DNA from: Deltaproteobacteria bacterium
GTDB lineage: Bacteria; Myxococcota; Myxococcia; Myxococcales; 40CM-4-68-19
NCBI GenBank assembly: GCA_005888115.1
Contig: VBKO01000059.1
Location: 1 to 32,021, forward strand
Direction: 5' to 3'
Length of the DNA: 32,021 bases
Shown here: positions 12,929-30,588 of the stretch, in pieces
Layout of the letters: each line of letters begins with the position of its first letter
How positions within the stretch are numbered: position 1 is the stretch's first letter
The notes under the pieces: generated by a model
Told to the model about the DNA's origin: nothing
What the model saw: only the letters and a program-made list of their open reading frames with translations
The model's database searches: none
Position numbers and translations under genes: made by a program

Positions 12929-14098
12929 ATGATGCACGCCGTGCGGCGGGCCATCCTCCACGTCGACATGGACGCGTTCTACGCGTCCGTGGAGCAGCGC
13001 GACGACCCCGTCCTGCGCGGCAAGCCGCTGGTGGTGGGCGGCAGCGCGCGGCGGGGCGTGGTGCTCGCGGCGAGCTACGCGGTCCGTCCGTTCGGGATCC
13101 GCAGCGCCATGCCGATGGCGCGCGCGCTGCGCCTGTGCCCCGACCTGCTGGTGGTCCCGCCGCGGTTCGACCGCTACTCGGAGGTGAGCGAGGAGGTCTT
13201 CCGCATCTTCCACGCCTTCACGCCCGAGGTGGAGGGCCTCTCCCTCGACGAGGCGTTCCTCGACGTGACGCGCTCCATCGCGCTGCACGGCGAGCCCGTG
13301 GAGCAGGCGCGGCGGATCAAGGTCCGCATCCGCGACGAGCTGGGCCTCACCGCGTCGGTGGGAGTCGCGGAAGTGAAGTTCGCCGCGAAGATCGCTTCGG
13401 ACCTGCGCAAGCCCGACGGACTGGTCGTGGTGCCCGCGGGTGGCGTGCGCGAGTTCCTCGCCCCGCTGCCGGTCGCGCGGCTGTGGGGCGTGGGACCCAA
13501 GACCGAGGAGGTGCTGCTGCGGCGGGGGCTGAAGCGCATCGGCGACGTCGCGGCGGCCGACCGGGAGGACCTCGAACGCGAGCTAGGGAGCATCGGTCCC
13601 TGGTTGCACGACCTGGCCAACGGCGTCGACGACCGCGCGGTCGAGCCGGACCGCGAGGCGAAGAGCGTCGGCGCGGAAGAGACCTTCGAGGAGGACCTCG
13701 CCGGCGACGACCTCCTCCCCTTCATCCACGGGCAGGCGCTGCGGGTGGCCTCGCGGCTGCGTCGCGCCGGCCTGCGCGCCCGCTCGGTGCATCTCAAAAT
13801 AAAGTTCGCCGACTTCCGCATCGCCACCCGGCAGCAGACCCTGGCCGAGCCGACCGACGATGGCGGCGAGATCTATGCCGTCGCGCGGCGCCTCCTCGCC
13901 AAGGTGGACGGCCGCCCGGTCCGGCTCACGGGCGTGCACGCCGGCGACCTCGGCGCGCGCCCGCAGCTCGGGCTGTTCGACGAGTCGCAGCCCGCCGCGC
14001 GCAAGCGTGCGCGTCTCAACGCCTCGCTCGACCGCATCGCCGATCGCTTCGGTCCGGGCGCCGTGGTGCCGGCCGACCTACTCGCCCGCAAGAAGTAG
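12929..14098 (+). CDS. dinB: DNA polymerase IV (Y-family)
   Basis: RAILHVDMDAFYASVEQRDDPVLRGKPLVVGGSARRGVVLAASYAVRPFGIRSAMPMARALRLCP...SLDEAFLDVT...SVGVAEVKFAAKIASDLRKPDGL. Confidence 0.97.
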   Translation: MMHAVRRAILHVDMDAFYASVEQRDDPVLRGKPLVVGGSARRGVVLAASYAVRPFGIRSAMPMARALRLCPDLLVVPPRFDRYSEVSEEVFRIFHAFTPEVEGLSLDEAFLDVTRSIALHGEPVEQARRIKVRIRDELGLTASVGVAEVKFAAKIASDLRKPDGLVVVPAGGVREFLAPLPVARLWGVGPKTEEVLLRRGLKRIGDVAAADREDLERELGSIGPWLHDLANGVDDRAVEPDREAKSVGAEETFEEDLAGDDLLPFIHGQALRVASRLRRAGLRARSVHLKIKFADFRIATRQQTLAEPTDDGGEIYAVARRLLAKVDGRPVRLTGVHAGDLGARPQLGLFDESQPAARKRARLNASLDRIADRFGPGAVVPADLLARKK

Positions 14099-14157
14099 CA
14101 CCCGCACGCACGTCCGCGGACTTGCGGCCCGCGATCCGGGCAACGACAATCGTGCAC

Positions 14158-14658
14158 ATGGAACGGAAAACGGTCCGGCGCAGCGCGAGCCGCGGGTTCA
14201 CCATCATCGAGCTGATGATCGTCGTGTCGATCATCGGCGTGCTGGCCACGCTTGCCATCCCGTACTACCAGAAGTTCACCGCCCGGGCGCGCCGGTCCGA
14301 GATGAACCTGACGATCAGCAAGCTCCGCATGCAGTTCATCGCCACGTATAACGCAACCAGCACGTTCCCGCCCCCTACCAGTGGCACTGACAGCACCTGG
14401 AACCCTGCCGACCCGGTGACCGGAACTCCTCCTCTCGGCACCGCCGCGGTGTGGAACGCGACCGCTCCGGACTGGGTCAACCTCCCTTCCATGGATGGCG
14501 CTGTCCGCATGCGCTACCAGTACAGCGTCACCAACTCGAACAAGACGGTGACCCTCACCGCGCAGGGCAACTTCAGCGGCGTCGGGCTGTACACGTACTC
14601 CGAGTCGTGGAGCGGCTCCGATCCGGCCGGCCTCCCGACCGAGTTCCCCGCGTTCTAG
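14158..14658 (+). CDS. type IV pilin-like protein (prepilin)
   Basis: MERKTVRRSASRG|FTIIELMIVVSIIGVLATLAIPYYQKFTARARRSEMN: class III signal with Glu+5 and N-terminal hydrophobic helix. Confidence 0.92.
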   Translation: MERKTVRRSASRGFTIIELMIVVSIIGVLATLAIPYYQKFTARARRSEMNLTISKLRMQFIATYNATSTFPPPTSGTDSTWNPADPVTGTPPLGTAAVWNATAPDWVNLPSMDGAVRMRYQYSVTNSNKTVTLTAQGNFSGVGLYTYSESWSGSDPAGLPTEFPAF

Positions 14659-28789: not shown

Positions 28790-29692
28790 CTACGCGGATT
28801 CGGCCACCCGCAGGCGGTCCTCGCTGGGGAAGAGGTCTTCCATCAGCTCGCCGAGCTCCGCCTCGAGCTTGGCCTTGGCCCGGATCTCCAGCTGCCGCGC
28901 GCGCTCCCGCGAGAAGCCGAAGTGCTCGCCGAGCTCCTTCAGCGTCATCGGCTTGTCCTGCATGACGCGCATCTCGATGATGTAACGCTCACGCGGGTCG
29001 AGGCGCGAGAGGGCTTCCACCACGCGCTCCTGCACGATGTGGCGCTCCTCCTGCTCGGCCAGCTCCGCGTCGGGCAGGTCGGCGCCGTCCATCACGAAGT
29101 CCACGTGGCTGGAGCCGCCGTCCTCGCCCATCGGCGCGTCGAGGGAGAGGTCGCGGCCCTCCATCCGCTGCTGCATCTCGACCACTTCGCCGGGCTTGAC
29201 GCGCAGCTTGCGGGCGATGGCCTTCTCGTCGGCGCCCACCTGCTCGGTGCCGTCGAACCTCTCCAGCTCGCGCCGCGTGCGCGCCAGGCTGAAGAACAGC
29301 TTCCGCTGTGCTTGCGTGGTCCCGAGCTTGACCAGGGACCAGCTCTTCAAGATGTAGTTCTGGATGAAGGCGCGGATCCACCACACCGCGTAGCTGATCA
29401 GCCGGATGCCTTTGTCGGCGTCGAACTTCTGCACCGCCTTCATCAGGCCGATGTTTCCTTCCTGGATGAGGTCCGCCATCTTGATGCCGTACGAGCGATA
29501 CTCGTAGGCAACCTTCACCACGAAGCGGAGGTTCGAGGTGACGAGCTTGTGCGCCGCGTCGAGGTCTCCGTTCCTGGCGTACAGACGCGCGAGCCGCTGC
29601 TCTTCGTCCACGGTCAGCAGCGGGTAGCGGTTGATCTCCGCCAGGTACATCGCGAGCGAGCCGGCGCTCGATGGGACGGTGGACGGTTGCAT
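28790..29692 (-). CDS. RNA polymerase sigma factor, RpoH/sigma-32 type
   Basis: [26 protein letters not shown]...[81 protein letters not shown]...[28 protein letters not shown]. Confidence 0.95.
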
Positions 29693-29742
29693 GCGGTTCC
29701 TCCCTGGGTACTTGGGTGCCGTTGCGCGACGTAGCGACCATG

Positions 29743-29758
29743 AGCAAGCTGGATGCCA
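29743..29758 (-). promoter_or_regulatory. candidate sigma-54 (RpoN) -24/-12 promoter upstream of the RpoH-like gene
   Basis: Minus strand TGGCATCCAGCTTGCT matches TGGCAY-N5-TTGCW with the correct GG-to-GC spacing; about 50 bp upstream of the start codon at 29692. Confidence 0.6.
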
Positions 29759-29928
29759 GGATTGGCGCTCCGCGCAAATGTCCTCGGAGCACCGCCCCTT
29801 GCTGCCGCGCGCCGCGATGCAGGTCGGGGCCAAGGCGGTAGGAAGTTCAGGATCGGCAGGCAGGCGAGCCTGTAAAGCGCGCCGGCCGCCTCCTTGCGAG
29901 CGCCTGCCGACCGGACTACGTTGCGGGG

Positions 29929-30588
29929 ATGCCCCCTGCCGGCAATCGACGCGGCAAATACCTCGGGTTCGTCGCACACGAGATCAAGAATCCCCTCGCC
30001 ACCGCGCTGTGGTCTTGCGACCTGCTCAAGCGGATGGACACGGCGGACCGCTCGGGGCCGCGCGCCGAGAAGATGGTCGATGCGAGCCTCCGCGCGCTCC
30101 GACGGATGCGGAGGCTCGTCGACGACTTCTTCACCATCGAGCGGCTCAACGAGCACGGTTACGAGCTCCACATCGATACCCTCGAGCTGCGTTCGCTGGT
30201 CGACGGAGCGATCGCGACGCTCGCGGAGAAGGACGGCGTCTCCACCCAGGGCTGGACCGTGGACGTGCCCGGCCAGCTCCTCGTGAACGGAGACGGCGAG
30301 ATGCTCCGGCGCGGCGTACGCGCGGTGCTCGAGCACGTGACCAAGGGCGGCGGCGCTCAGGCGCGGCTGACGATCGTCGGGCGTGCGCTGCCCGCGGGCG
30401 GCGAGTTGATCGTGCGTTCCTCGGAGCCCCCGGATCCGCTGGTGCCGCCGGTCGCCGAGGAGCGACCTTCGGGAGATCCCTTGGGAACCGTCCTTGGATA
30501 CGCGCTGGCGGAAACGGTCTTCTCCGTGCACGGCGGAAAACTGCAAGAACGCGAAGGCGCGCTGGTGATCTCGTTTCCGAAGAGATGA
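29929..30588 (+). CDS. HisKA-domain protein / histidine kinase with degenerate ATPase domain
   Basis: [29 protein letters not shown] (H box) and [39 protein letters not shown] (HATPase C-terminal-like); N and G1 boxes not recognisable; no N-terminal sensor. Confidence 0.8.

Follow-up and report, generated by a model that had tools for sequence, protein, structure and literature searches.

The window, by which we mean the whole stretch of 32,021 nucleotides that was analysed, carries a sigma factor gene on the minus strand, a kinase-like gene that diverges from it, and, in the intergenic region common to the two (29693 to 29928), a series of putative control elements. The features of the locus are as follows.

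28790 to 29692, minus strand: RpoH-family (sigma-32-like) sigma factor gene, 300 amino acids, assigned by translation, the TIGR02392 model and the tree.
29696 to 29704, minus strand: Shine-Dalgarno sequence GGGAGGAAC, recognized in the sequence and kept in the family alignment.
29732, minus strand: predicted transcription start, placed from the promoter geometry 12 nt past the C of the -12 GC.
29743 to 29758, minus strand: putative sigma-54 -24/-12 element TGGCAT-N5-TTGCT, identified by an exact consensus match and by conservation in relatives.
29835 to 29841, minus strand: enhancer-like element 2, CTACCGC, exactly 34 bp from element 1; relatives have TTACCGG or CTACCGG.
29869 to 29875, minus strand: enhancer-like element 1, TTACAGG, at a distance of 117 bp from the -24 box on its upstream side; it is in register in the family alignment and occurs in paralogues and other families as well.
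29929 to 30588, plus strand: gene for a divergent histidine-kinase-like protein, assigned by Pfam, alignment and a structure model.

Elsewhere in the window, a type IV pilin-like protein (GFTIIELMIVVSIIGVLATLAIPYYQKF) was noticed by eye in the list of open reading frames at 14050 to 14658 on the plus strand, directly following a gene that resembles the one for DNA polymerase IV (12929 to 14098).

Read on the minus strand from 29758 to 29743, the promoter element is TGGCATCCAGCTTGCT, which has 0 mismatches to TGGCAY-N5-TTGCW and a distance of 10 bp between GG and GC, as the criterion for sigma-54 promoters demands; 51 bp separate its 3' end from the ATG of the sigma gene at 29692. The original prediction, which placed a motif of this exact geometry about 50 bp upstream of the ATG, is accurate in sequence, coordinates, strand and spacing, and its expected transcription start at 29733 agrees with that of approximately 29732 derived from the geometry, both being predicted positions. 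With a start at 29732 the leader of the sigma transcript is predicted to be about 40 nt long. There is no other exact match to the consensus in the window. Taken alone the motif is nevertheless unconvincing, because the whole 4.7-Mb draft genome of the host contains 4 exact matches to the consensus and also 4 to a reversed control pattern. Furthermore, when 2 mismatches are allowed the window has fewer matches than its shuffles. Both counts favor the view that the resemblance to a short, degenerate consensus is due to chance, the genome being GC-rich, but the relatives of this locus speak against it.

We searched up to 300 bp upstream of the gene in 90 non-identical related loci; the alignment-based counts take in closely related species. 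With at most one mismatch the element is found in 89 of the 90 loci, at 50 to 170 bp from the start codon (52 exact matches, 37 with one mismatch, and a single locus with two), while Markov-1 simulation of these upstream sequences yields an expectation of 0.4% at this level of stringency. The GG and GC dinucleotides are invariant in 90 of 90 loci. In the alignment of the window's family the motif can be recognized as a conspicuous block kept within a diverged intergenic region, and the two closest homologues in Myxococcus xanthus have the -24/-12 elements TGGCATTTCTGTTGCT and TGGCACGTGGGTCGCA upstream. As controls, none of 17 upstream regions of a sigma paralogue of 45% identity from the same genomes has the element at up to one mismatch, and of 17 homologues that belong to other classes of the phylum none has it near the gene (one site with 1 mismatch occurs at -369). 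A search of 60 related genomes gave 486 exact matches to the consensus and 161 to the reversed control, an enrichment from which it follows that members of the order commonly use sigma-54 promoters of this kind. Since position and spacing are kept, the paralogue controls lack the element and the relatives are enriched genome-wide, a chance match has become so improbable that it can hardly be entertained. The count of motifs would have been insufficient for this purpose; it is because of conservation so far above expectation that we take the element, with near certainty, for a genuine sigma-54 promoter, and the proposal that such a promoter drives the sigma gene draws its support from these 90 loci.

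A domain search of the sigma gene product finds sigma-70 regions 1.2, 2 and 4. Its score with the TIGR02392 RpoH equivalog model, 325.9 bits, is a narrow pass over the cutoff of 323.1, under which the M. xanthus homologues fall with 315 to 318 bits. Start codon and Shine-Dalgarno sequence are kept in 10 genomes of the window's family. The host genome also encodes a sigma paralogue of 46% identity and a remoter homologue of the sigma-70 family; one more match is split. When 74 proteins are placed in a tree, in which some branches of the outgroup are long, the sigma factor of the window belongs to a clade with 99/98 support that comprises only Myxococcales, while the 45% paralogues and the proteins of other classes fall outside. 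Repeated duplications have occurred within the clade in Myxococcaceae and Anaeromyxobacteraceae; the genome of the window has a single copy. The two M. xanthus members (L080 and L114) are the closest M. xanthus homologues, and the gene order and map position seen in a close relative of that species make it probable that group A is SigB and group B is SigC. In that relative (G038) the first clade member is located 3.94 Mb into a genome of 8.97 Mb, close to where MXAN_3357 sigB is expected, and the second and a small hypothetical gene diverge from each other, an arrangement described for sigC/MXAN_6208 (PMC4320627). From the promoter geometry, the transcription starts of the M. xanthus homologues are predicted at about -70 (group A) and -55 (group B) relative to their ATGs. 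We refer to the members of the clade as SigB/SigC-type sigmas. When the presence of the promoter is mapped on the tree as a label, four state changes are required, versus 22 for shuffled labels; the members without the element are those of family f9 and part of family f3. This pattern is consistent with one gain and a few losses of the promoter. Seven genomes (G004, G006, G027, G030, G048, G052 and G053), several of them more than 97% complete, are without a SigB/SigC-type sigma, and can be useful as natural controls. According to the title of a paper by Ueki and Inouye (2001) in the references of PMC4320627, SigB, SigC and SigE of M. xanthus are needed for multicellular differentiation and are not required in heat shock; the label 'RpoH-type' given to the gene at the outset holds for the sequence, by the TIGR02392 score, but not for the role reported for the Myxococcus homologues, which is developmental.

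Upstream of the promoter, TTACAG or CTGTAA elements recur at about 70 to 135 bp from the -24 box across the related loci. Most members of the window's family have two (T/C)TAC(A/C)G(G/C) elements 34 bp apart, and these precede the -24 box by 69 to 117 bp. In Myxococcus an element at -80 is part of a palindrome, TGTAAC-N-GTTACA, and is accompanied by CTAC(A/C)GC at -125; in a second Myxococcus group the element is mostly at -89, and in Anaeromyxobacter there are elements at -134 and about -92. The counts of TTACAG/CTGTAA in four groups exceed those in shuffles (16 versus 2.6, 18 versus 2.5, 38 versus 9.4, and 37 versus 7.9), although by the strict pattern TTACAG is missing in one member of the window's family (L020) and in several Myxococcaceae. 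In the 60 genomes, the pattern TTACMG-N62-90-promoter has 19 matches, 18 of them at SigB/SigC-type sigma genes, and CTGTAA-N68-98-promoter has 7, all at such genes, so that jointly 25 of 26 matches fall on SigB/SigC-type sigma genes; as the gap ranges were picked from sigma loci (the locus of the window being outside them), the count at these loci is partly circular, while the near absence of matches elsewhere is not. By chance, about 3 (TTACMG) and 1 (CTGTAA) matches would be expected among the 486 sigma-54 sites. A direct repeat, TTACMGG-N26-28-YTACMG, was also tried as a regulon finder and was abandoned, as all that it retrieved, apart from two matches apparently due to chance, were sigma loci. 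None of the other exact sigma-54 sites of the host genome has the same enhancer pair. One of these sites (G000:C427:10862-10877; L146, L232) lies directly upstream of a gene on the same strand for an enhancer-binding protein (bEBP), with TTACCGG only about 30 bp upstream of the site, which suggests that the C427 bEBP may be an autoregulated or cascade-controlled activator.

Because the elements exceed the shuffles and the pattern matches are nearly confined to sigma genes, these observations suggest that the TTACAG elements may act as a dedicated enhancer of the promoters of SigB/SigC-type sigmas; their distances suit activator sites, for which the criterion is about 80 to 160 bp from the start. 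It could be argued that they serve some other regulator, or the kinase-like gene, rather than being bEBP sites for the sigma promoter: they lie 54 to 94 bp from the start of that gene, and palindromes such as the one of Myxococcus could suit many families of regulators. However, elements at a similar distance occur in Myxococcaceae, although there the neighbouring gene that was read runs in the same direction and a search revealed no kinase of this type, and they are almost exclusive to sigma-54 promoters of the SigB/SigC type, so that we regard this explanation as unlikely. Even less probable, in our judgment, is that RpoN holoenzyme bound at the element is for the most part poised or repressive, and that the working promoter, dependent on sigma-A or autoregulatory, is elsewhere. 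There are precedents for such a situation, since E. coli has repressive RpoN sites and its rpoH has several promoters (PMC8743547, PMC3844500), and several transcription starts are common for M. xanthus genes (PMC8844925). Here, though, no good sigma-70-like site directed towards the sigma gene can be recognized in the intergenic region, the best having 4 mismatches out of 12, and the co-conserved enhancer-like sites are at distances suited to activation. The leader of the sigma gene could still have a second, unrecognised promoter.

The divergent gene encodes a protein with a HisKA domain (PF00512), whose phospho-accepting histidine (His17) is invariant in 20 sequences. None of the 11 proteins scanned has a HATPase_c domain that reaches the cutoff, and the N and G boxes have not been preserved. 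The structure model (pLDDT 93) matches kinase cores, with DivL (4q20) as the best match in the PDB (E 5.7e-13, TM 0.78). This gene is the kept divergent neighbour of the sigma gene in the window's family, in Anaeromyxobacteraceae, including further copies of the sigma (L108, L112), and in family f5. More tentatively, the protein is probably a phosphotransfer or docking partner in the same pathway rather than an ATP-using kinase. Like the enhancer-like elements, it goes beyond what had originally been predicted for this locus.

The host genome encodes RpoN and about 29 bEBPs, which together with the conservation of the promoter makes the sigma cascade controlled by an enhancer-binding protein, as first proposed, very likely. 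In M. xanthus RpoN is reported to be essential. In Anaeromyxobacteraceae, genes for a sensor kinase and a bEBP are convergent to the sigma gene. In favor of this bEBP as the activator in that family, the adjacency is kept in 12 loci and the protein has response-regulator/AAA/Fis-type domains, the accompanying kinase being a full one; but orthologues are lacking from the window's genome, from most of the window's family and from Myxococcaceae, while two genomes without the sigma clade do have the protein, and we consider the idea rather doubtful. As a universal activator it is ruled out, its distribution not following that of the sigma clade. In one of these kinase and bEBP operons (L220:121-3040) the reading frame of the bEBP appears to shift near 1890, at the receiver/AAA junction. 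We also compared the 29 bEBPs of the host with two genomes in which the sigma is present (G003 and G017) and one in which it is absent (G004). Only L227 (G000:C155, 484 amino acids) is kept in both of the former and missing in the latter, but of 9 bEBPs so conserved 1 could be absent from G004 by accident; L227 is a lead, a candidate activator. In G003 the adjacent upstream gene seems, as judged by eye, to encode a further kinase with no evident ATPase domain, and at L255 the bEBP is preceded by another HisKA gene apparently devoid of ATPase boxes. L227, L255 and L298 are the loci of the bEBP that matches the distribution of the sigma gene.

Overall, we consider it highly probable that a working sigma-54 promoter switches on a SigB/SigC-type sigma, and through it the regulon of that sigma, and that this arrangement arose once and was kept through duplications. 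In such a pathway, a signal would bring a bEBP to the TTACAG sites, RpoN holoenzyme would open the DNA at 29743-29758, and the SigB/SigC-type sigma so made would transcribe its own regulon; the arrangement would have arisen at the base of the Myxococcales sigma clade and persisted through the later duplications. The motif, its deep conservation, its restriction to one clade and the co-conserved elements upstream, which occur almost only at these genes, are observed, whereas RpoN dependence, bEBP binding at TTACAG, the identity of the bEBP and the regulon are all features that we infer. A more ambitious form of the proposal, which we advance tentatively and with rather less than even confidence, is that of a dedicated, vertically inherited switch of Myxococcales, in which one bEBP, acting through TTACAG enhancers that virtually no other sigma-54 promoter shares, would control only SigB/SigC-type sigmas. 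Its partner would be the ATPase-less kinase-like protein, in a phosphotransferase or docking role (compare Spo0B, ChpT and DivL), and the switch would predate fruiting-body development and have been used for sporulation later.

Enhancer-binding proteins are active early in the development of M. xanthus, while SigB and SigC have their role in differentiation. The literature searched does not state how sigB and sigC are switched on, and no described sigma-54 promoter of either gene was found in it. An RpoN promoter that is conserved and has enhancer sites of its own would directly link these two layers, and its presence in relatives of the SigB and SigC of spore development offers a testable answer to what may switch them on. 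Neither Anaeromyxobacter nor the uncultured soil lineages are known to fruit, and neither fruiting nor sporulation is known in the lineage of the window; the same arrangement in Anaeromyxobacter and the soil lineages would mean that the cascade is older than fruiting, or independent of it.

These results can be compared with several known systems. The closest is that of M. xanthus SigB and SigC, of the same sigma clade, where the two closest M. xanthus homologues likewise have a -24/-12 element upstream, with the difference that Myxococcus has two copies of the clade and the window one. During glycerol sporulation of M. xanthus rpoN is raised early (class I), and sigB and sigC later (class II), 50-fold and 140-fold respectively (PMC2875238), an order that fits the proposed pathway. 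The divergent protein has its best structural likeness in DivL of Caulobacter. The latter is a case of a kinase fold used without the ordinary role of a kinase; it carries a tyrosine in place of the histidine, whereas in the myxobacterial protein the histidine is invariant and it is the ATP-binding domain that is degenerate. Among genes of the RpoH family, a sigma-54 site is found upstream of rpoH in E. coli (CTGGCACAGTTGTTGCT; PMC4591121) and in Salmonella, where the effect is small, 1.7-fold in an array (PMC3844500). The enterobacterial site belongs to a different lineage and is one among several promoters. Since the myxobacterial promoter is confined to one clade of Myxococcales and absent in other classes, the two are probably of independent origin; the 'recurring design' suggested by the original prediction is real in that both groups have such a site, but the two promoters look like independent arrivals. 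In the Rrp2-RpoN-RpoS cascade of Borrelia, RpoN and a bEBP likewise switch on a second sigma gene (PMC2940757, PMC11109971), although the target there is RpoS, not a member of the RpoH family, and the phylum is another. In view of enterobacterial rpoH and of Borrelia, this kind of arrangement is already known; what is apparently new, as far as the literature searched extends, is a conserved promoter with a seemingly dedicated enhancer for the SigB/SigC clade.
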